From an uncultured Synergistales bacterium (GTDB lineage: Bacteria; Synergistota; Synergistia; Synergistales; Aminobacteriaceae): a stretch of 56,705 nucleotides of DNA. Where the stretch lies: NCBI GenBank assembly GCA_905233455.1, contig CAJOES010000007.1, positions 351-57,055 on the forward strand, written 5' to 3'. The position numbers were made by a program, and so were the translations under genes. Below the pieces are notes generated by a model. The model saw only the letters and a program-made list of their open reading frames with translations, did no database searches and was not told where the DNA came from. Shown piece after piece: positions 9,722-47,735 of the stretch. How positions within the stretch are numbered: position 1 is the first letter of the stretch; every line of letters starts with the position of its first letter.

Positions 9722-10255
9722 CTATCTTACAGGCTCAAGAAGCCCGTAACCGTTCTCCTTGCGTTTGTACACAACGTTGATCTCGCCGGTGTCCGCATTC
9801 TGGAACATGAAGAACGCATGACCAACAAGCTCCATCTGCATTATTGCCTCTTCCGTGCTCATCGGGTGAACCTGTACCTTCTTCACCTTGTCGATAACCG
9901 GAGCATCACTGACAGGCTCTGCAGCTTCCTCAACACTGAACGAGAACTCCTCGCCCGCACCAAGCTGCGCCCTGTCCTTAAGGTATGAATTGTATTTCTT
10001 GATCCTGCGCTCAAGGTTCTTCAATGACTGGTCAAATGCCGTCCTCATGTCAGTAGCGTCCTCTTCTGCCCTGAGTATTACACCGTTGGCATTGGCCGTA
10101 GTCTCAACGTTGAAACTGCCCTTGTGATGCGTAACTACTATCTGACAGTTCAGGATCTTGCGGAAAAACTTTTCCAGCTTTGAGATCTTCTTCTCCATAT
10201 ATTCACGGAGCTTCCCGTCAATCTCTGCACCGCGCTGAACAAACCGAACTTCCAT
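9722..10255 (-). CDS. hpf: Ribosome hibernation promoting factor, long form
   Basis: 177 residues, the length of long HPF. The N-terminal S30AE/YfiA domain (VRFVQRGAEI to about residue 100) binds the 30S decoding region. After an acidic linker comes the C-terminal dimerisation domain (VQVHPMSTEEAIMQMELVGHAFFMF), which pairs two ribosomes into inactive 100S dimers in stationary phase. A GGAGGTG ribosome-binding site precedes the ATG. A minus-strand TATAAT (10302-10297) in the 54-base gap to the aroB-like gene may give it an independent promoter. It ends in its own terminator. Confidence 0.95.
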   Translation of the reverse strand: MEVRFVQRGAEIDGKLREYMEKKISKLEKFFRKILNCQIVVTHHKGSFNVETTANANGVILRAEEDATDMRTAFDQSLKNLERRIKKYNSYLKDRAQLGAGEEFSFSVEEAAEPVSDAPVIDKVKKVQVHPMSTEEAIMQMELVGHAFFMFQNADTGEINVVYKRKENGYGLLEPVR

Positions 10256-10309
10256 GATATATATCGCACCTCCTGAATAAATGTTGTGGTGTCAGTATTA
10301 TATTACATT

Positions 10310-11386
10310 TCATCTGTTCATGCCCGCTGAAATAATCCCTTCAAGCTCCTCGCTCTTTACCTTCCTCACCTCACAGCGTCCGATCTCAGCAGGCACAACC
10401 ATATCTACGATCCCGCCCCAAGACCTGCGCGCCGCCTGTGCAATCTCTGACGGCCTGAATGAATTTGTGTTGTCGGGAAGATTATTCCTGTTCAGCGCAC
10501 CTATAATCCTTTTCGCAGTCTCCTCACTGCACCAGCCCATTTTTGCGCTCGCCATTGCAGTAATACCGATACCCTGAGCCGTAGCAATCCCGTGCTGAAC
10601 GTCATAGCTGCTGAGCGAGCATATAGCACTGCCGACAACGCACCCCAGCTTCAAGCCTCTGATCCTCTCATCATTGCCGGAAATGCCTGCACGGAACTTT
10701 ATGCACTCCTCGATGATGCGCTCAATGTTCCCGTCAGCCTCTCCGCGCTCGAATATCCTGAACATGTCCTCACCGCACACAATAGAAGTCTTCAGTGCCT
10801 CAGCAACCCCGCTCCTGTATTCATCCGGCGGAAGCGTCTTCAGCGAGTCCGTATCGCACAGCACCAGAGAGGGACTGTATGACATTCCGGCGAGATTCCC
10901 CCCTGCGTTAAGGTTGAGCCTTGCGTGCCCTCCTGCTGAAGCCTTCACCATTGCGGCAAGAGTCGTCGGAACAAGCACGAGCCTTACCCCGTTCATGTAG
11001 CACCCTGCGGCAAATCCTGCAGCATCACACACAACACACCCGCCCAATGCAACAACACAGCACCTTTCAGACAGGCCAAGACGCGCCATATCTTCAAGGA
11101 GTTTCGCTACAGTCTGGAAGTTCTTTGCGGGTTCATGGGAATCTATCAGCAGTTCGCATATCCTCAGCTTTGTCCCTTCAGGCCGGGGGCATTCCTGAAA
11201 GTTCATGATGACTTTCTGCAGGTAAAGCCCCGAAACCTTTTCGTCCGTGATGAGCAGAACCTCATGTTCCGTATCATCTTCAAGCCTCAGTATCTCGATT
11301 CCTAAGCGTTCAATCAGTCCCCTGCGTATCTTGACGCTGTAACCTGAAGCTGTATTCTCCGTGCTGACCTTTACGTTTGCCGGCAT
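10310..11386 (-). CDS. AroB-like (3-dehydroquinate synthase family) protein with altered active site
   Basis: 358 residues from the ATG at 11386, which has AGGGGA seven bases upstream. A longer open frame reaches 11512 but runs through the attenuator hairpins, so it is rejected. The fold is that of 3-dehydroquinate synthase: ALGGCVVCDAAGFAA, VPTTLAAMV, LKTLPPDEYRSGVAEALK and VQHGIATAQG align along its length. Several catalytic positions are changed. The usual GGGVVGD is GGCVVCD; the Asp of QVDSSVGGKT is Lys148; its GGK Lys is His154; the GKN Lys is Gly163; GHTFGH is GCVVGS (249-254). The Glu and Lys of SGVAEALK and the His of QHG (265) remain. Normal dehydroquinate synthase activity is therefore doubtful. 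The leader upstream encodes an aromatic-rich attenuator, tying expression to aromatic amino acid supply. Confidence 0.85.
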   Translation of the reverse strand: MPANVKVSTENTASGYSVKIRRGLIERLGIEILRLEDDTEHEVLLITDEKVSGLYLQKVIMNFQECPRPEGTKLRICELLIDSHEPAKNFQTVAKLLEDMARLGLSERCCVVALGGCVVCDAAGFAAGCYMNGVRLVLVPTTLAAMVKASAGGHARLNLNAGGNLAGMSYSPSLVLCDTDSLKTLPPDEYRSGVAEALKTSIVCGEDMFRIFERGEADGNIERIIEECIKFRAGISGNDERIRGLKLGCVVGSAICSLSSYDVQHGIATAQGIGITAMASAKMGWCSEETAKRIIGALNRNNLPDNTNSFRPSEIAQAARRSWGGIVDMVVPAEIGRCEVRKVKSEELEGIISAGMNR

Positions 11387-11416: not shown

Positions 11417-11454
11417 AAAAACACCTTCCGGATTCTTTGACTGTCCAGAAGGTG
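11417..11454 (-). terminator. Attenuator terminator before the aroB-like gene
   Basis: On the minus strand CACCTTCTGG (11454-11445) pairs over ten positions with CCGGAAGGTG (11431-11422), leaving a 13-base loop. TTTTT (11421-11417) follows directly. It lies 30 bases before the ATG of the aroB-like gene and can only reduce transcription into that gene. Confidence 0.88.
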
Positions 11455-11546
11455 CTGTAATGGTTTCAGTTTCGCTGTGTATGTGGTGTTGCCAGTGCCT
11501 TATGTCAGCCAAAGAGTATTAACCCTCCGGTAAAAGTACCAGAAGG
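11417..11546 (-). promoter_or_regulatory. Transcription attenuator with alternative hairpins (aromatic-responsive)
   Basis: Four segments on the minus strand behave like regions 1-4 of a trp-type attenuator. Segment 1 is CCTTCTGGTA (11546-11537), segment 2 TACCGGAGGG (11532-11523), segment 3 CACCTTCTGG (11454-11445), segment 4 CCGGAAGGTG (11431-11422). 1:2 gives a ten-pair stem with a four-base loop; 3:4 is the terminator. Segment 3 repeats CCTTCTGG of segment 1, so 2:3 can pair over eight positions as an antiterminator. The aromatic codons of the leader peptide lie on and just before segment 1, so a ribosome stalled there would free segment 2 and allow read-through. Pairings are read by eye; mechanism is by analogy with trp/phe attenuators. 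Confidence 0.85.
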
Positions 11547-11607
11547 AAGGGCTAAAGTAGAATTTCTTTGCTGACTTATTGTTATTCACTGTAATTGATT
11601 TCTCCAT
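11500..11607 (-). CDS. Aromatic-rich leader peptide of the aroB-like gene
   Basis: A 35-codon open frame, too short for routine gene finding. Residues 16-26 read FYFSPSFWYFY, with eight of eleven aromatic and all three aromatic amino acids present; Trp33 follows shortly before TAA at 11502-11500. The ATG (11607) has no clear ribosome-binding site. A GTG at codon 7 is in the same frame with GGAG twelve bases upstream, so the true start may be either. It sits between a promoter and the attenuator terminator. Its role would be to sense charged tRNA-Phe, -Tyr and -Trp by ribosome pausing; the peptide itself need not have a function. Confidence 0.82.
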   Translation of the reverse strand: MEKSITVNNNKSAKKFYFSPSFWYFYRRVNTLWLT

Positions 11608-11631
11608 TTTCAGAAAATTTCAAGTACACAA

Positions 11632-11660
11632 ATAATCACACACCAACGCAAAAATGTCAA
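11632..11660 (-). promoter_or_regulatory. Promoter of the aroB-like leader transcript
   Basis: TTGACA (11660-11655) and GATTAT (11637-11632) are spaced by 17 bases on the minus strand. Transcription would begin near 11625, about 18 bases before the leader-peptide ATG and just after the terminator of the giant gene. Confidence 0.75.
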
Positions 11661-11734: not shown

Positions 11735-14700
11735 TTACTCCGTTTCAGTTTCAGCCTCTGCCGCCTCTTCAGCCGCCTTCTTGAGCGCGTCCACTGTCAG
11801 AACGTCGCCCTCTTCAAGATTCTCTGCGTCGTCCTTAGCACCGGCAGTGTTGCTGACCTTCACCGCGATTACTGGTGCATATTTCTTGTCCGCATAGAAC
11901 CACGTATTGACTGTTACGACCCTGCTTGCAGGTACAGCCGTGATGTCTCCGGTCTCATCATAGAATATGGTGCTTCCTTCCTCATCATCAAGTGCCTTTC
12001 CTACAGGGAACGGGAAGTATACCAGCTCTGCACCGACAGGAGCGTCCTCAGCAAGTGCAATGTTCGTGATCTCATGCAGTCCATCTTCCTCTGCCTGCAT
12101 CTCCGGAAGTATCGCAATGATCTGGTAGCCTTCCTCAATGAACCATGATTTCTGGGTGTCGCTGAGGTCTGCTTCAGTCCTTGCCCTGCCGAATGTCAGT
12201 GTTCCGGCGTGCTCTTCTGCTTCTGCTTTGGGTTCAGTCTGTGCTTCCTGCTCGGCTTCTGCTTCAGTGCCGGTTTCAGGCGCGCTTTCACTCTCCGGAG
12301 CGTCCTTATCAGACTGTGTGCTCGCCGGGGTTACAGTTATGGCTATTGGGAATTCCTTGGATACATTCTTGCCAGAGCTGTTTGTAGCCTGAACTGTTAA
12401 TGTATCCGTTGTTGCAGACATACCCTTTGCAGCTGTTACCGTTACTGTAGCTTTATTTCCAAAAGTATTATTTTCCTTAGGAACATTCAGCTTTGCCGTA
12501 ACACCTTTCTGACTGGGCTTGCCTGTTATCTTCCACGAAATCTTCGAGTCGCCCGTAGCCTCCGTTGCAGACGAAAGCTTCAGATTGATAGTGGCATCCT
12601 TCTTATCTTTTGCCGTAGGTTTAAGCTCTACCGCCGCAGTTCCTGAAGATACTTCGATTACAGGTTTAGGATCGTAAACTGCAACCTTTACGCTTCCGTT
12701 GGCCTTAGTGCCGTAGTTCTCCATATCGAACTTGACGCTTATACCCTTTGTTGCTGTAGGCTTTTTGGTGGTCGCAAACATGCCATATCCGTCAGCAGTG
12801 GTGGTTATAGTCGTAGAGAAGCCAGCATTCTTCAGTGCGTCTATGGTCTTCGTGTCCGATATTGAGTACTGGATGTTAGAGTCTGCAGAAACTGCGTCAG
12901 TCTTAATCAGTGCCTTTGCAACTCCGTAGTTATCTTCCGACAAGTAGAATTCCAGCGTTTTTGACGTAACTTTCGGCTTTGTTCCCTTGATACCAACCCT
13001 GAACTGCAGAGGATCGCTCTTTCCGGCATCGTTATACGCCACAGCATAGACATCCATAGACGCATATTTCTTAGTAGTAGGGTCATATGTTGCTTTCGTA
13101 GCTACACCATTTCCTGTGCTCAGTACACCGTTCTTATCTAACGAGAGTCCGTACGGCGCAAGAGCACTTGCGGCATCCTTAGAACTTGCGGCTAACACAG
13201 TGTTTCCGATCTTCACGCTGTCAACATACCATCTGATGCCGTTTCCGCTGGTAGAGCCTTTAACCCCTCCCTTGAGGCTGAGCTTCTTGTTGATCTCAAA
13301 TTCCTTGCCCACGTAGTTGACCGTGATCTGAGGCTTCATCAGAGCTTTGATCGTGATGGTCTTCTTCGCAGTTGCACCGGTTGAATTGTTCTTCGCCGTA
13401 AGGGTTATCTTGCTCGTAGTCTCTTGTCCGGCTTTAGGAGTTCCGCCGATTATGTAGAACATACCGTCAGCAGGCTTTGCATTGCTGTAGGATTTGAAAG
13501 CATCAACAGAAACAGAAGTAATGTAGATACCGTTCTTTGCATTAGCCGGTAACTTGTTCTGCCTTAAATTATCCACTACTTCAGATATCGGATCAAGCTT
13601 CTGCGAAGAGGTTACGGTGATCGGGTTGTCTCCTTTTACGAAGAAGACGTACTTCACGCCGTCTAGGTTAACCTTTTGCATTGATCCCTTAATCCTTAAG
13701 GTGGCTACACCTTCTATGTTATCACCTGAAATTTTCTCGCCGTCCACCTCAGTGGCAAAAGTAACCTCGCCTGATGTCGTAGGTATGCGCTGGAACTTAA
13801 AGCCTTTTGCATCCTTGCTGAACGCATTAGCATTGAACCATATCTCCGGTGCCTGGATTGGATCGATATTCAGCTTCACGTTCGCAGTAACAGGCTTCTT
13901 CTTGCTGTCCGTATCCCAGTTCTCCATACGGATAGTTACAGGAAGCCCCTTGAATGCCACGCTGTCATCAACACTCACCAGATACTGATCGGTTAATTTG
14001 CTCCTGTCCATAGAGACGAAGCCGTTCATATCCTTGTCATTACGATCACTGCCGTAACGCAGCAGCTTGATATGACCCGTGCCTGTCAGTCCGTCCGCAT
14101 AGAATGCGAGCCTTGTGGGGTTGTCCATGATTTGATCGTCTATACCATTATTACCATCATTAATAATGCCCCAGAGAGTAATATTACCGTCTTCATTCGC
14201 ATCATAGAAGGTAGCATTCTCCTTGTCGTGATAAGTGATGTCTATGCTTGCAGTGGCAGGATACTTCGTGCCGAATATCTTGTTGGCGGTCTTTCCGTCA
14301 ATGTATGCAGCCATTCTGATGGGCTTTGATCCTGTAGTTTCAAATGTCCAGTCATGAGAAGTCTCCTTAGAGCCTGCCGTAACAAACGTCTTCGTCGCGA
14401 GCTTCGGTGATGCAGCCTTTACATTGATTGTGAAATCCTTGCTGGCTCTCACGCCGTGGTTATGTGCGATGACCTTAATCGTGAGTTTTCCGCTATCCGG
14501 CATTCTGTCAATACTGCCAGTTATGATCGGTTTCGCAGGGTTGGAGTTGTCAACATACAGGTAGCTGTGCCTCTGGACGAACGACAGGTTCTTGCTGCCC
14601 TCACGGAGCTTATGGCCAATAGTCTGATCACCGCTCTTCACATCATCCCACACACGGGGATCATCAGAAACCAGATAGAAAGCGTTCTGATAATCGCCAT

Positions 14701-17700
14701 CTTTATCGCCATAATCTAGTTCTGCTTCGTAGTAGTTAGGACCGTACTTGTTAAGTTGCGGAAAACTCTCATCCTTAACAAAATAAGTGGAAGCATACAC
14801 AGGATACTTGCCGGAGTTCATCATGTTTTCTGCGTCTTCTCCATATGTTGCGTTCACCTCATCGTACTCATAATACGGCTGGTATGTTTCATAGTTCTCA
14901 GCGAGTACATCATCATATATCAGCCTTATATCCCAGCTCTGAACCTCCGTGTCAGAAACGAGTGCAGAACTCTTGTAGACCTTGTCCACAGTTATATCGC
15001 TGATCTTCAGTTTCTCGGAGATTACAGGTACACCATGTACCCAGATATTTGCACTGACCTGAGCGGATATATCCTTGTCGAAGCTGTTTGCGGCAGTGAT
15101 AACGTACGTTACCTCCCCGTATACAGGCTTCTTGCCCTTAGCTGAAGTTGTAGTAGCCGCTGTGAACGTTCCGCTTATGGTTGCATACGACTCTACATCG
15201 TTGCTCTTAGGGTTAGGAGTAAGCTTAACGCCTTCAGGAAGATTCGCCGCAGACCAGTTGACGGGCCCGGGATACGCCTTAAGTATTACCTTGTCGTAAC
15301 TCTTACCGACCGCTATGTCTCCGCTGGTCAGAACACCTTCATATACGTCGATGGATATTGTCTTAGTGCCGACGCTTATCGGAATCTCTGCACTGCTGAT
15401 GCCTGCATCGTTCTCTGCCCAGAATATGTACTTCTTAAGAGGAGTTATCTTTTTCGGTTTACCGTAGACTAATACATAGTCCGCATAATAATCATCAGTA
15501 CGGTCATCACTCGAGGCATAATAGGTATCTGTACCTGCAAGGCCTTCAGGAAGATAGCCGGGCTCTGCATTATAGCCAGGATCATCAACTGCTTTGTCGT
15601 TCTGGCCTACAGCATCTTTGCCGCTGAAATCCTTCTGCTTTGAGTAGAAGCCTGACCTCTTGATCGTACCGCCGCTTGACATCTTGATGATTGCCTGAGA
15701 CAGATCTTTGCTCGTCTCTTCGGTTGTTGTATAGTCGTTGCTCCAAATGAAAGCGAAATTCTCTGCCTCAAATGAAATCTCTGGCGGAACAAGTATGAAG
15801 TTCAGCTCTATATCCTTTGAGACCGTCCTTCCTGATCCTTCAGCAACCAGCCTTACGGTTTTTACCAGTTCATCATTGCCTGTGCCGGTAGTACCGCCGC
15901 CGAAATCAATAGGAGTATTGATGCCCTGCTTCCATGTGCCGTTGATGGAGGCTTCTTTGTCCTTATAGGAGAATACCAGGTCGTTGCTTTCGAGCTTTAC
16001 CCCGCTGTCGGCGGATATATAGCTCCACGTAACAGCATCCTTGAAGCCGGTTGCCTTAATGTTGATTGATGCCCCCTTGCCCCATACAACGTCATAGCTT
16101 GCGGGCTGTTCAATCTTCGGGGAAGGCAAAACCGTAATCTTGAACTTAGGCGAAATAGTACCCAAAGCATTACTGACAGTGATGGTTATCTCTTTGTCCG
16201 CAGATTCTGTCGGCGTACCGGTGATGTGAATCGTTCTCGTTCCGTTCTTTTTATTGGCATCTTCAGCAGCAGGCTGGTCTAAGTCATCGCTTATCGTCAT
16301 ACCTTCAGGAAGCTGTTCGTTGATTGCGTCCGTGTCGATTTCCAGAGGCAGTGTGCCAGTGAACGTAAACTTAAAGAGATATGATGTAATGTCATCTGAA
16401 AGTTCCTCGCCTACATAAAGACCGTTCTCGAACTGCCAATCCGTATACTCATAGTCGTATTTCTTGCCTATGTTGTCGTCTTCTTTGAGTTCCGAATCCA
16501 TTACAGGTGCTTTTGCCCCAGTTACAGATACGGTGAAGTCCTTGCTTGCAGTTGGTTTCGTATCAGCACTGACCGTAGCCTGAACCCTGATGACAAAATC
16601 CTTGTCGTATGATACGCCGTTAGCTGCATCAACTTTGAGCTGTCCGTTGTCCTGCAAAACAAGTCCCATAGCTTTGAGCTTCTTTTCGCCGGATATGACC
16701 TTGAACGAAATATCTGATGAAGGAGCAATGTCCGTGTAGGGATTCAGCTTGACTTTGTACGTGTAATCCTTGCTGGTCAATTCGCTTATACCAAGCGGGA
16801 TCTCGAACTTTGTCTGGCTCGCGTCAAATACCGGGCTGGGATATTCAAGAGTCGTGATATTGAAGCGGACTCTCTTAGAGCCTAACGCGTTGGAGACATC
16901 GAAACTGATCGGATGCGTACCTGCGTCTTCCTTGTATTTAGGCGTTCCGTAAATGGTGATTGTCCTTGAACCGTTCTTGCCGTTTGCGTCTGTACCGTCC
17001 GGAATATCCTCGCTGTAATCTACTTCCAGTTTGTCGGGAAGCTGTTTGTCGAAATTCCCTATATTCAGCGGTAGAGTGCCCTTGAACGTCAGCGTGAAGT
17101 ACTTCTTGCCTGCGGGGCTGTCCTTGCTGATCTCATCACCGACATAAAGTCCTCCTGCAACACTGTAATTATTATTGTAGAGGGCTTTATGGTATTCAGT
17201 ATCGTAGAGCTTGCCCAAGTCCGTAGTTCCGGAAGTAAGATCAAGCGTTGAATCGATATCCGGGGATGTTGCGCCGGTAATATTGATTGTGAAGTCCTTG
17301 CTTGCAACCGGTTTCGTATCCCTGCTGACCGTTACCTTGACCCTGAAGCTGAAGCTCTTATCGTAGGATATAAGCCTTCCTGCCTTATCGGGCGAAAGTT
17401 TGCCGTGAACGTCCATGCTGAGTCCGATTAAATCGAAGCTGCCCTTGCCGGTATCAAGCGTGAAGATCATATCTTTGTCGAGGTCTATAGAAGCATTGTA
17501 GGCTTTAAGGTTGATCTTGAAGCTTTCTCCGAGTGCAGAACTGCCAAGCGGAATATTGAACGTTGCATTGGCCGGGGTGTCCGCAAATTCCGGTGCAGGG
17601 TATCTTAGTACCGACATCTTGAATTCCATGCGCTTGCTGCCCACGCTGTTGGAGACATCGAAGCTGATCGGGAATACTTTTGCTGCTCCTGCCTGTACGT

Positions 17701-20700
17701 CCTTAGAGTCCGGTATGCCGCCGATCTTGACTATTCTTGAACCGTTCTTTTCGTTGTCGGTATTCGGGGTGTCAGTGCCGTAGTCTATGGACATGCCGTG
17801 AGGAAGCTGATGATCGAAGCTCGTTATATTCAGCGGCAGAGTGCCCTTGAACGTGAACGTAAAGTACTTCTTGTATGTCTCACTGTCCTTGTTGAGCGGG
17901 TCTCCGACATAAAGTCCGTTATTGTGTTCGTTGACTTCCTGATCATGCAGTACGCCGATGTCAGTGCCGGAATTTATGACAAATTTCTTGTCTGCGCTGA
18001 GTTCCGGTGCTGTTCCGCCTTCAACATGTATTTTGAATTCCTTTTCTGCTGAAGGGAACGTATCCTTGCTTACCGTAATTTTGACCTTCATTGTGAAGTC
18101 CTTGTCATACGATACGCCGGTGGTGTCCGCTGAAACAAACAGTTTTCCGTCTGCGCTCAGTGCAACGCCTATCTTGTCGAGGCTGTCCGCAGCATCCGAG
18201 GTGAAGATGAATGTAACATCGTCTGAAGGAGCAGAGTACTTATCCATAGAGACATAGAAGAACTGATTTTTATCACCCAGCGTGAATGTGAATTCGCCTT
18301 TCTGCTGTCTGGTGAATACCGGTTTCGGGTATGCAAGCGTAGTCATCTTGTAGGTTCTGGAGATGGTTTCAGCCGCATCGGTTGCAGTAACCGTTACTGT
18401 GTGGTCTCCGCTGTCGGAAGACTGAGGAATGCCTCCGAGCTTCACGACCCTGTAGCCGTTCTTACCGTTGTAGCCGTCCTTGTCGTATGAGACCTCTTCG
18501 CCGTAATCCACAGAAACACCTGCAGGAAGCCCCTTGAAGTCAACGCTTATCGGAAGTATGCCTTCAAACTTGAACGTAAGATATTTCTTAGCCCCATTGC
18601 TGGAAGTATTGATACGATCACCGGTGTAGAGTCCGTTATTGAACTTATGATCTTCATTATCATAGAGCTTGCCGAGATCTTCACCCGGCTCTACGTCGTC
18701 CGGTGAAAGCATCGCAAAGGTTTTTCCACCTTCAATGTGTATGGTGTATTCCTGTTCGTTATAGCTGTAATTAGGATTGCCTTTGCTTACCGTTGCCTTT
18801 ACCTTAAATTTGAAGTCATCAGCGTAGGATACTTTTTCAACTCCCAGTGCTTTAACCAAGTTCCCCTGCTTATCAATATCAATGCCTATTTTGTCAAAAT
18901 AACTTCTGCCGTCTGTAAGAGAGAAAACCATATCTTTACTGGTTGCAGTGGCATTGTATATATCAAGAGAAATCTTATGCGGAATATTATCAAGGCTGGT
19001 AGCACCGAGCGGAATGTTGTAGGTTAACTGCCTGTTCGGATAGACCTGATCAAATGTCGGCTTCGGGTAATAAAGCCTAGTTATTTTATAACTTTGTGTT
19101 TTTGTTCCGGCTTTTTTAGTAACAGCATCAAAGTACTTCAGCGTTATTGTATCCTCTTTAGAGTTGGCCGTTCCGAAGTCCTTAGAGGTAATTGTACCTC
19201 TGAGAGTAACTATCCTGTAGCCGTTCCTGCCGTTTGAGCCGTCAGAATCAATCGAAACGTCCTGGCTGTAATCCGCGCTTAAGCCTCCAGGAAGTTTGCC
19301 GAAGTCCGCACTGATGGGCAGAGTACCGACAATCTTGAACGTAAGGTAATTGTAGTCATAATTATCCTCGTCTTTGCTGGTGAGAGGCTGGCCGACATAA
19401 AATCCGTTATGGTAATTCTTGTCGTACAGCTTGCTTATGTCCGTATCTGCCGCCACTCTGTCCGGAGAAACTATCTTAAGCTCCTGAGTACCAGTAATCT
19501 TTATGGTGAATTCCTGCGTTTTAGACGGTTTTTGATCTCTACTGACAGTTACTTTAACGCTGAAGTTGAAGTTTGCATCGTAGGATATTGGCACGCCTTC
19601 TTTGTCTGGAGACAGTCTGCCGTGTTTGTCCATGCTGAGTCCTATTTTTGCAAAATTCGCCTGACCTGATGCAAGTTCAAAGATCATATCTGCACTTGTT
19701 GCAGGTGCGGGGTAGGCATCCGGTGAAATCTGGTACGAAGCATCAAGGCTTGTAGCACCGAGCGGGATCTCGAACACTTTCTGGCTGTTGTCAAATGTCG
19801 GGGCAGGATACTTCAGTGTCGTTATCTTGAACTGCTGCGTAGTATTAGCGGTCTTGACATCGTTGGAGACATTCAGCTTTATTGTACTCGTCGTATTGTT
19901 GGTGGGCTTGCCGCTGATCGTAATCAGTTTGTAGCCGTTCTTTCCGCCGAAGCCGTCGCTTTCGTCAGAAACGTCCGGGCTAATGTTTTGCGTCAAGCCG
20001 CTCGGAAGACTATCTATCCTTGCATGAATGGGCAGAGTACCCGTAACCTTGAACGTAAGATACTTCTTGTAGTTATCGGTAAAATTGCCGTCAGTGTCCT
20101 TGCTGGCTATCTCGTCTCCTACATAAAGCCCTCCGCCGTACGGGTCGAACAGCTTGCCGAGATCTGAGTCTGCTGCTACCTCCGGCGATACTATAGCAGG
20201 TTCTTTGATGCCGGTAATATTGATGGTGAACTCATCCTGAACGAAAGGCTTAGGCTGCTTGTTTACTGTAGCTCTGATCTTGATTTTGTTTTTAGTATTG
20301 AGAGCCTGATCATAAGATACACCTTTTGCTACAGCCTTGGCATCAGCCGACACATAGCCTTCTTTGTCCAAACTGAGTCCGAGTTTCTTAAGAAGATTCT
20401 CGCCGTATTCATCCGTACTGTAGATTATAGTTGTGCCTAGATAGTCTTTCACAGGTATTTGCTTCCTGAACTCTTTACTGCCAAGCGGTATAGTCAATGT
20501 CTTGTTTTCGTCTGCGAATTCAGGCTTGCCCTTAGCCCACGGTTCTATTGTCAGTGTGAAACTGTCCGAGAGGTTGTTATTTTTATCTTTTACGGTAACC
20601 GTGTATGTCCCTGCGCTTACGTCATTGGGAGAAACCAGCAGTTTAGCTACTATGCCATAGTAGGATTTATCATCGATAGTAGTCTTTGTAGCACCGTCTG

Positions 20701-21025
20701 ACTCATTGAAGTACAGGTGAGAATTAGCCAGCCTTCCTTTCCCTTGATCGACGGACAGCTCGATTTTATCGAAGCTTCCGGAAGCATCATTGTCGCCGCT
20801 TTTGATGGTTACTTCCGGAACTTTAAGCCCGCCTTCGGCATCAGCAGACAGTCTAACGATCGCAACCTTAATATCCTTGCTGGTCTCGCGGATGGTTCTG
20901 GCTGTAGAAGATTCCGAGCCTTTGTCTATGCTGATTAACACATAATTGCTATCAGCAAAAGCCGGAATGCCTGAAACGAAAATTAGCCCAACTAAAATAG
21001 TCAGACCTAACAAGCGTTTTATCAT
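11735..21025 (-). CDS. Giant secreted Ig-like repeat protein
   Basis: 3096 residues. The ATG at 21025 has AAGGAGG eight bases upstream and begins a signal peptide (about 24 residues, ending AFA). Roughly residues 170-1640 hold six tandem units of about 245 residues. Each has an IPLG strand, ISYDxxF, a VTVSRD-type strand, DLGKLYD, a GLYVGD box (near residues 297, 539, 795, 1033, 1290 and 1533), LTFKxxGTLP, NGKNGYR and an LxYPxP ending. More He_PIG/cadherin-like Ig modules follow; one near 1640-1740 (WGKG, GTWKQG, GSGRTVSKD) matches the Synerg-CTERM protein. Near the C-terminus an acidic Glu/Ala-rich linker leads to a distinct domain (WFIEEGYQIIAILP, VTVNTWFYADKKYAPVIAV) and an acidic tail, with no membrane anchor visible. 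Probably a surface fibre, S-layer-like protein or adhesin; export route and ligand are unknown. Confidence 0.85.
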   Translation of the reverse strand: MIKRLLGLTILVGLIFVSGIPAFADSNYVLISIDKGSESSTARTIRETSKDIKVAIVRLSADAEGGLKVPEVTIKSGDNDASGSFDKIELSVDQGKGRLANSHLYFNESDGATKTTIDDKSYYGIVAKLLVSPNDVSAGTYTVTVKDKNNNLSDSFTLTIEPWAKGKPEFADENKTLTIPLGSKEFRKQIPVKDYLGTTIIYSTDEYGENLLKKLGLSLDKEGYVSADAKAVAKGVSYDQALNTKNKIKIRATVNKQPKPFVQDEFTINITGIKEPAIVSPEVAADSDLGKLFDPYGGGLYVGDEIASKDTDGNFTDNYKKYLTFKVTGTLPIHARIDSLPSGLTQNISPDVSDESDGFGGKNGYKLITISGKPTNNTTSTIKLNVSNDVKTANTTQQFKITTLKYPAPTFDNSQKVFEIPLGATSLDASYQISPDAYPAPATSADMIFELASGQANFAKIGLSMDKHGRLSPDKEGVPISYDANFNFSVKVTVSRDQKPSKTQEFTIKITGTQELKIVSPDRVAADTDISKLYDKNYHNGFYVGQPLTSKDEDNYDYNYLTFKIVGTLPISADFGKLPGGLSADYSQDVSIDSDGSNGRNGYRIVTLRGTITSKDFGTANSKEDTITLKYFDAVTKKAGTKTQSYKITRLYYPKPTFDQVYPNRQLTYNIPLGATSLDNIPHKISLDIYNATATSKDMVFSLTDGRSYFDKIGIDIDKQGNLVKALGVEKVSYADDFKFKVKATVSKGNPNYSYNEQEYTIHIEGGKTFAMLSPDDVEPGEDLGKLYDNEDHKFNNGLYTGDRINTSSNGAKKYLTFKFEGILPISVDFKGLPAGVSVDYGEEVSYDKDGYNGKNGYRVVKLGGIPQSSDSGDHTVTVTATDAAETISRTYKMTTLAYPKPVFTRQQKGEFTFTLGDKNQFFYVSMDKYSAPSDDVTFIFTSDAADSLDKIGVALSADGKLFVSADTTGVSYDKDFTMKVKITVSKDTFPSAEKEFKIHVEGGTAPELSADKKFVINSGTDIGVLHDQEVNEHNNGLYVGDPLNKDSETYKKYFTFTFKGTLPLNITSFDHQLPHGMSIDYGTDTPNTDNEKNGSRIVKIGGIPDSKDVQAGAAKVFPISFDVSNSVGSKRMEFKMSVLRYPAPEFADTPANATFNIPLGSSALGESFKINLKAYNASIDLDKDMIFTLDTGKGSFDLIGLSMDVHGKLSPDKAGRLISYDKSFSFRVKVTVSRDTKPVASKDFTINITGATSPDIDSTLDLTSGTTDLGKLYDTEYHKALYNNNYSVAGGLYVGDEISKDSPAGKKYFTLTFKGTLPLNIGNFDKQLPDKLEVDYSEDIPDGTDANGKNGSRTITIYGTPKYKEDAGTHPISFDVSNALGSKRVRFNITTLEYPSPVFDASQTKFEIPLGISELTSKDYTYKVKLNPYTDIAPSSDISFKVISGEKKLKAMGLVLQDNGQLKVDAANGVSYDKDFVIRVQATVSADTKPTASKDFTVSVTGAKAPVMDSELKEDDNIGKKYDYEYTDWQFENGLYVGEELSDDITSYLFKFTFTGTLPLEIDTDAINEQLPEGMTISDDLDQPAAEDANKKNGTRTIHITGTPTESADKEITITVSNALGTISPKFKITVLPSPKIEQPASYDVVWGKGASINIKATGFKDAVTWSYISADSGVKLESNDLVFSYKDKEASINGTWKQGINTPIDFGGGTTGTGNDELVKTVRLVAEGSGRTVSKDIELNFILVPPEISFEAENFAFIWSNDYTTTEETSKDLSQAIIKMSSGGTIKRSGFYSKQKDFSGKDAVGQNDKAVDDPGYNAEPGYLPEGLAGTDTYYASSDDRTDDYYADYVLVYGKPKKITPLKKYIFWAENDAGISSAEIPISVGTKTISIDVYEGVLTSGDIAVGKSYDKVILKAYPGPVNWSAANLPEGVKLTPNPKSNDVESYATISGTFTAATTTSAKGKKPVYGEVTYVITAANSFDKDISAQVSANIWVHGVPVISEKLKISDITVDKVYKSSALVSDTEVQSWDIRLIYDDVLAENYETYQPYYEYDEVNATYGEDAENMMNSGKYPVYASTYFVKDESFPQLNKYGPNYYEAELDYGDKDGDYQNAFYLVSDDPRVWDDVKSGDQTIGHKLREGSKNLSFVQRHSYLYVDNSNPAKPIITGSIDRMPDSGKLTIKVIAHNHGVRASKDFTINVKAASPKLATKTFVTAGSKETSHDWTFETTGSKPIRMAAYIDGKTANKIFGTKYPATASIDITYHDKENATFYDANEDGNITLWGIINDGNNGIDDQIMDNPTRLAFYADGLTGTGHIKLLRYGSDRNDKDMNGFVSMDRSKLTDQYLVSVDDSVAFKGLPVTIRMENWDTDSKKKPVTANVKLNIDPIQAPEIWFNANAFSKDAKGFKFQRIPTTSGEVTFATEVDGEKISGDNIEGVATLRIKGSMQKVNLDGVKYVFFVKGDNPITVTSSQKLDPISEVVDNLRQNKLPANAKNGIYITSVSVDAFKSYSNAKPADGMFYIIGGTPKAGQETTSKITLTAKNNSTGATAKKTITIKALMKPQITVNYVGKEFEINKKLSLKGGVKGSTSGNGIRWYVDSVKIGNTVLAASSKDAASALAPYGLSLDKNGVLSTGNGVATKATYDPTTKKYASMDVYAVAYNDAGKSDPLQFRVGIKGTKPKVTSKTLEFYLSEDNYGVAKALIKTDAVSADSNIQYSISDTKTIDALKNAGFSTTITTTADGYGMFATTKKPTATKGISVKFDMENYGTKANGSVKVAVYDPKPVIEVSSGTAAVELKPTAKDKKDATINLKLSSATEATGDSKISWKITGKPSQKGVTAKLNVPKENNTFGNKATVTVTAAKGMSATTDTLTVQATNSSGKNVSKEFPIAITVTPASTQSDKDAPESESAPETGTEAEAEQEAQTEPKAEAEEHAGTLTFGRARTEADLSDTQKSWFIEEGYQIIAILPEMQAEEDGLHEITNIALAEDAPVGAELVYFPFPVGKALDDEEGSTIFYDETGDITAVPASRVVTVNTWFYADKKYAPVIAVKVSNTAGAKDDAENLEEGDVLTVDALKKAAEEAAEAETETE

Positions 21026-47578: not shown

Positions 47579-47593
47579 GATCGCATAAATTCA

Positions 47594-47684
47594 AATGGGA
47601 GCTTGTATTACAGGCTGAGAGTCTGCTACAGAAGCAGAGACCATCATAACCTGATCCGGATAATGCCGGCGGAGGGAACTCTTC
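47594..47684 (+). promoter_or_regulatory. TPP riboswitch (THI element)
   Basis: The conserved blocks occur in order: GGGAGC, GGCTGAGAG, GACC, then ACCTGATCCGGATAATGCC and GGCGGAGGGAA. It binds thiamine pyrophosphate and represses downstream genes. No terminator is visible between it and thiM, so control is more likely at translation initiation of thiM (ribosome-binding site GGGAGG at 47722-47727). The five genes that follow are all for thiamine salvage. Confidence 0.93.
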
Positions 47685-47735
47685 AATTCAGCCTTCAGTA
47701 TATATACAGCCCCATACATACAGGGAGGAAATATC

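Follow-up and report, generated by a model that had tools for sequence, protein, structure and literature searches.

On the minus strand of the window, the whole 56,705-nucleotide stretch of DNA analyzed here, a ribosome-mediated attenuator responsive to Phe, Tyr, and Trp most probably derives from an operon of aromatic amino acid biosynthesis (aro operon) and has been kept, after loss of the pathway, before a repurposed gene of the 3-dehydroquinate synthase (DHQS) fold; we put the probability of this reading at roughly 0.8. Judged by architecture, conservation, and covariation, all read from sequence, the attenuator itself is genuine. The mechanism of attenuation is already known, and what is new is the setting, in which an attenuator persists despite the loss of its pathway and has had its pairings restored by compensatory mutations. 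The elements of the attenuator and the genes downstream of it are listed in Table 1.

Table 1. Features of the attenuator and of the genes that follow it (positions in the whole window).
Feature	Position	Strand	Remarks
Promoter	11632..11660	(-)	TTGACA 11660-11655, spacer 17 nt, GATTAT 11637-11632 preceded by TG; 10/12 match to consensus
Leader ribosome-binding site, GGAG	11602..11605	(-)	similar distance to start in nearly all leaders
Leader open reading frame (ORF)	11500..11589	(-)	GTG start, 29 codons VNNNKSAKKFYFSPSFWYFYRRVNTLWLT, TAA 11502-11500; homologous peptide in 30 leaders
Segment 1	11566..11574	(-)	TCAGCAAAG; pairing partner is segment 2
Aromatic codons FYF...FWYFY	11530..11562	(-)	predicted stall region
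1:2 hairpin, inner part	11524..11545	(-)	CTTCTGG 11545-11539 : CCGGAGG 11530-11524
Segment 2	11498..11514	(-)	CTTTGGCTG 11514-11506 and AAGG 11501-11498
Segment 3	11435..11454	(-)	terminator 5' arm CACCTTCTGGA 11454-11444 and loop CAGTCAAAG 11443-11435
Segment 4	11422..11432	(-)	terminator 3' arm TCCGGAAGGTG; 98.2% of cells paired
U-tract of intrinsic terminator	11417..11421	(-)	TTTTT
AroB-like (DHQS-fold) gene	10310..11386	(-)	358 aa, catalytic residues lost
Candidate -10 of hpf's own promoter	10297..10302	(-)	TATAAT, conserved in the aroB-like/hpf gap
hpf	9722..10255	(-)	ribosome hibernation promoting factor, long form; directly follows the aroB-like gene

The 231-nt attenuator region folds more stably than 200 of 200 shuffled versions (z = -3.5), and its terminator hairpin (11454-11422; 11-12 bp, -17.7 kcal/mol) is followed by the TTTTT tract. 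The upstream DNA of congeneric aroB-like orthologs can be aligned from promoter through terminator, and in this alignment TTGACA and TGt.ATtATT are kept in nearly all relatives. No Rfam family, including T-box, Trp_leader, Phe_leader, and riboswitches, matched positions 11417-11660 above the gathering threshold; a TPP riboswitch lies elsewhere in the window (47585-47695; RF00059, 64.6 bits). A further terminator-like site at 11701-11667 belongs to the neighboring upstream gene, which codes for a 3096-aa protein with a repeated pattern (window 11735-21025). Relatives carry genes other than this one upstream of the attenuator, LarE-like in some as read from translations.

The sequence-only reading had begun the leader at ATG 11607, giving 35 codons, and comparison with relatives rules this start out: the ATG is generally absent from them, a few (e.g., L038) having one there or nearby, and their leaders start with GTG, TTG, or ATG at the site of GTG 11589, about 13 nt downstream of GGAG. 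From this conserved start the leader has 29 codons, and the aromatic stretch described earlier is present in it at codons 10-20 instead of 16-26. Nine of the 29 codons are aromatic, compared with 9.1% in the window's proteins (binomial P = 8e-4). Over 30 leaders, the reading frame contains on average 9.1 aromatic codons (of 30.6), and the two alternative frames contain 2.4 and 3.2; the totals are 134 F, 81 Y, and 57 W. The proposed reading of Phe, Tyr, and Trp codons by the leader is supported and conserved across relatives. Aromatic codons are conserved in number rather than in exact position. Conservation of the leader peptide is high around (F/R)WY..(F)QR, which is explained by the WY/QR codons building the covarying inner 1:2 hairpin.

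Of 43 genomes of the genus, which belongs to the Synergistaceae of the ruminant gut, 30 have a homologous leader 5' of the aroB-like gene. The genomes compared are draft metagenome-assembled genomes (MAGs), obtained from a search of 61 genomes for the AroB-like protein and, for additional ones, from a search for hpf. The same or closely related loci occur in Synergistaceae MAGs from the gut of goat, sheep, deer, and reindeer, two of which are labeled uncultured Fretibacterium.

Covariation was assessed in a 30-sequence leader alignment, in which kinship among the species means that the shuffle counts given here are not probabilities. The terminator hairpin and U-tract are present in all leader copies; 98.2% of cells in the 3:4 pairing are paired, 10 of them double-change cells, and 0/500 shuffles were as good. 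For the 2:3 antiterminator, in which CTTTGGCTG pairs with the segment 3 loop CAGTCAAAG and AAGG (11501-11498) with CCTT of the terminator 5' arm, the corresponding values are 91.7% and 15, matched by 0/500 shuffles on either percentage or score. The 1:2 helices are paired in 84.1% of cells, and their inner hairpin in 91.4%, with a double change at 2 pairs. Compensatory changes in the 2:3 pairing can also be recognized by eye (L023, TTCGGCTG:CAGTCGAA; L008, CTGTATGCTG:CAGTAAACAG), and L003 carries a matched deletion in both of its sides. Duplexes between segments 2 and 3 of the same species are stronger than cross-species ones (-19.4 versus -15.4 kcal/mol; 0/5000 permutations), as is also true of the 28 aroB-like leaders alone, with the two aro-operon copies left out (0/10000 permutations).

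An antiterminator had previously been proposed on the basis of CCTTCTGG, which occurs twice on the minus strand of the attenuator region. Its pairing with CCGGAGGG is possible yet not conserved as a pair: it gives no covariation signal (77.9% paired versus 77.6% in shuffles), its duplex energy is no better within than across species (P = 0.83), and we rejected it, the pairing with covariation support being that of 11514-11506 with 11443-11435 together with AAGG:CCTT. The remainder of the architecture in the sequence-only reading stands, since promoter, 1:2 hairpin over the aromatic codons, and terminator with TTTTT are all found on the minus strand, and the alignment of orthologous upstream regions that it had proposed revealed conserved aromatic leader codons and covariation in the paired segments. 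The element has the aromatic leader ORF, 3:4 terminator, 2:3 antiterminator, and 1:2 hairpin of a trp/phe-type attenuator, the class to which it had been assigned, although the 1:2 hairpin, whose expected role is to free the terminator when the leader is not translated, is weaker in several species; the leader is conserved in relatives, and compensatory change is seen in terminator, 1:2 hairpin, and antiterminator.

The signal sensed would be a shortage of charged tRNA-Phe, tRNA-Tyr, and tRNA-Trp. With sufficient aromatic amino acids, the ribosome is expected to reach the stop codon and cover segment 2, whereupon the 3:4 hairpin and the U-tract would stop transcription near 11417. Under shortage, it would stall on the aromatic codons and occlude segment 1, and the free segment 2 could then pair with segment 3 ahead of segment 4 synthesis, allowing RNA polymerase to continue into the aroB-like gene. 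Ribosome stalling and termination in vivo are what we infer here from the sequence. In folding tests by ribosome position, the probability of upstream pairing of segment 3, computed before segment 4 is made, was 0.69 with a stalled ribosome, 0.14 with the ribosome at the stop codon, and 0.36 without a ribosome, the last state being ambiguous (0.6-0.8) in several species. Once segment 4 is present, the terminator beats the antiterminator at equilibrium, with a mean probability of 0.94 also when the ribosome is stalled. Equilibrium folding favors the terminator in nearly all states and is therefore uninformative as a test of the switch, which, because the terminator wins at equilibrium, must act kinetically during transcription. 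Kinetic operation of this kind is accepted for E. coli trp.

The protein encoded downstream is homologous to AroB (TIGR01357; DHQS domains PF01761/PF24621), and its TIGR01357 score of 195.8 is below the equivalog cut-off of 305. When the AroB-like proteins (pseudo-AroB) were aligned with solved DHQS, K152, H271, and H275 (A. nidulans numbering), which we take to be metal-binding and catalytic residues of DHQS, proved to be lost in 26/26 aligned sequences, the window protein having H, C, and S in their place; R264 is lost too and K250 nearly always, and E194 and H287 are nearly always kept. G019, a congener that has retained the pathway, encodes a canonical AroB. According to the predicted model (pLDDT 83), for which the best PDB matches are all DHQS (TM about 0.8-0.87), the DHQS fold is retained. 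Pseudo-AroB is monophyletic (100/100), its stem measuring about 1 change per site, and groups with the AroB of G019 and the AroBs of g28 operons (100/99). Values of dN/dS between 0.06 and 0.15 in 13 pairs show purifying selection on the gene, which rules out a decaying pseudogene and indicates that the protein is in use; we propose that it has been repurposed for a role other than DHQS catalysis. Two apparent in-frame stops among the aroB-like genes lie near the C-terminus. At L025 and L026 (genomes G007 and G020), the protein is 236 aa long, with the C-terminal domain gone and a dN/dS of 0.086; from these forms, its present function may be carried by the N-terminal domain.

Chorismate synthase (PF01264), detected in 14/14 control genomes, is present in 4 of the 43 congeneric genomes (G019, G021, G036, and G064), and the search found it neither in the window's genome nor in 38 of 42 congeners. 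EPSP synthase exceeds the cut-off in 3/43 (G019, G021, and G036), all of which retain chorismate synthase, with a fragment in G064; no match over the cut-off was found in the window's genome, and the matches of about 100 bits in nearly all other genomes are read as MurA. B. subtilis-type DAHP synthase is over its cut-off only in G019 and G064 among the congeneric genomes and was likewise not found at that level in the window's genome, the remaining weak matches being read as KdsA. Aromatic auxotrophy is thus probable in the organisms without the pathway, which may draw on anthranilate or indole. Most congeneric genomes keep aroE-like genes, and 25 keep trpB over the cut-off; in those inspected, other trp genes adjoin it and trpE does not, which suggests that tryptophan is made from imported anthranilate or indole. 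Loci with trpB and trpA together with trpC/trpD, several also with trpF (L105, L106, L107, L108, and L110-L113), occur in G022, G035, G031, and G033, in which chorismate synthase is absent and no trpE is adjacent; only trpB-trpA was seen at the trp locus of G000 (L104), a genome also without chorismate synthase. In G019, an aro operon without attenuator (contig C247, L090) has aroA followed by two short fragments, each matching the end of EPSP synthase (positions 322-413), which are partial duplications.

Genes downstream of an attenuator usually make or charge the amino acid sensed. This is not the case in the window, where the idea that the attenuator serves a working common-pathway gene is contradicted by the absent pathway genes and an AroB-like protein without catalytic residues, and it is the case in relatives, where homologous leaders head whole aro operons; the earlier argument that an attenuator of this type fits common-pathway genes thus proved true of them. 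A leader of this type immediately precedes tyrA-aroA-aroC-pheA-aroK in G021 and G036. A covariance model gave a single strong match in each of 32 congeners out of 43; 30 of these matches lie ahead of the aroB-like gene, and the other 2 are the aro-operon leaders of G021 and G036. Weak matches (about 35 bits) in G036 and G034 were judged to be ordinary terminators of other genes. When the search was extended to the 183 genomes of the class, the model added seven further genomes, for which gene names were read from translations: G099, G100, and G101, of the same family, with the attenuator before aroF-tyrA-aroB-aroA-aroC-pheA (plus aroE in G100); G122, G123, and G126, of another family, before a similar aro operon; and G173, before a gene start resembling aroF. 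The simplest history consistent with this distribution would be that an aro operon was under attenuation, that the pathway was lost in most of the genus, and that the attenuator and a changed aroB were kept.

Wherever the available sequence extends far enough, hpf comes next after the aroB-like gene, the one exception being G013 (L094, L095), which keeps the attenuator and the aroB-like gene and has hpf behind a metK-like gene on a different contig. The gap between the aroB-like gene and hpf is mostly 36-83 bp, no terminator was found in it in the window, and a terminator-like site follows hpf at 9708-9684. The motif AATGTAATATAATA is conserved just before hpf in the gap of relatives, and TATAAT also precedes hpf in genomes without the aroB-like gene, in which hpf has no attenuator. 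The TATAAT conserved in the gap and likewise found upstream of unlinked hpf genes suggests a separate promoter for hpf, which makes hpf less probable as the sole target of the attenuator. Read-through from the attenuator may extend into hpf and add to this promoter-like site, in which case a shortage of aromatic amino acids would be coupled to ribosome hibernation.

Homology of the downstream gene to AroB and the homologous attenuators of real aro operons in relatives are what one would see if the attenuator controlled a working aroB of the host's own common aromatic pathway; this is extremely unlikely given a score far from the equivalog cut-off (195.8 versus 305), the loss of K152, H271, and H275 in all orthologs, and a genome in which aroC is absent and neither EPSP synthase nor B. 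subtilis-type DAHP synthase exceeds its cut-off. The lost pathway and a catalytically degenerate protein on a long stem (about 1 change per site) would also suit an inherited remnant with no present regulatory effect, kept by chance. Compensatory changes in both the 2:3 and 3:4 pairings within the pathway-less clade, the advantage of own over cross-species duplexes (0/10000 permutations), and the retention of promoter, leader frame, and U-tract make such a remnant highly improbable. We regard it as quite unlikely, too, that the leader is a TnaC-like nascent-chain arrest peptide sensing a ligand and not a shortage of charged tRNA: the conservation around (F/R)WY..(F)QR speaks for it, but the WY/QR codons sit in the covarying inner 1:2 hairpin, the number of aromatic codons is conserved rather than their exact positions, and the 1-2-3-4 alternatives are compatible with a stall at any aromatic codon.

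More doubtful than probable is the view that hpf is now the main selected target, aromatic starvation being tied to ribosome hibernation by read-through across the aroB-like gene. Linkage of the two genes in all sufficient genomes except G013, the short gap, with no terminator found in that of the window, and the retention of leader and hpf in G007 and G020, whose AroB-like protein is shortened to 236 aa, agree with it; against it stand the conserved TATAAT that points to a promoter of hpf's own, the genomes without the aroB-like gene that have hpf without an attenuator, the attenuator and aroB-like gene kept without hpf in G013, and purifying selection on the AroB-like protein itself. Similarly tentative, and rather unlikely as it stands, is the broader proposal that the attenuator outlived its pathway and was recruited in aromatic-auxotrophic gut bacteria to induce a repurposed DHQS pseudoenzyme and HPF together, as a ribosome-stalling switch from starvation to hibernation.

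The element shares with classical trp/phe-type ribosome-mediated attenuators (E. coli trpL and pheL; proteobacterial his, leu, ilv, and thr) a short leader ORF rich in regulatory codons, the mutually exclusive 1:2, 2:3, and 3:4 pairings, and an intrinsic terminator before the structural gene. It differs from the classical cases in that the leader mixes Phe, Tyr, and Trp codons, segment 2 finds its antiterminator partner mostly within the loop of the terminator, the system belongs to Synergistota, and the gene controlled does not serve a functioning biosynthetic pathway in the host. The attenuators of complete aro operons in other Synergistota, L159, L160, and L162 (aroF-tyrA-aroB-aroA-aroC-pheA), L161, L163, L164, L092, and L093, were detected with the same covariance model or formed part of it and, like the element in the window, have an aromatic leader, a terminator, and a place directly before the first gene. 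Those operons carry the pathway genes, and their AroB, if they have one, is of the canonical type, whereas the window has only an aroB-like relic followed by hpf. With the 3-dehydroquinate synthase AroB, the window protein has fold and sequence homology in common; unlike AroB, it is without the catalytic Lys/His and scores below the equivalog cut-off. Attenuators of the classical kind have been described upstream of genes for biosynthesis and for tRNA synthetases (e.g., PMC1262725; PMC9413887). Within a literature coverage that is incomplete and no proof of novelty, we found no published attenuator before aroB or aro operons in this phylum and none controlling hpf. In S. aureus, hpf is under nutrient-dependent CodY control (PMC6256015), which ties a nutrient signal to the hibernation factor, as is likewise proposed for the window; CodY, however, is a DNA-binding regulator and not a leader-peptide attenuator, and in the window the link to hpf consists of gene order alone.

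Textbook attenuators serve biosynthetic operons, whereas compensatory mutations have preserved the present one in about 30 species that lack the pathway, offering a testable case of a regulatory RNA that outlasts its pathway and is reused. The relatives show that in Synergistota entire aro operons stand behind classical attenuators of the aromatic type. As a caution, a gene annotated as "aroB" in such genomes is not equivalent to a working pathway, and the gene order downstream gives a hint that amino acid shortage may be linked to ribosome hibernation.
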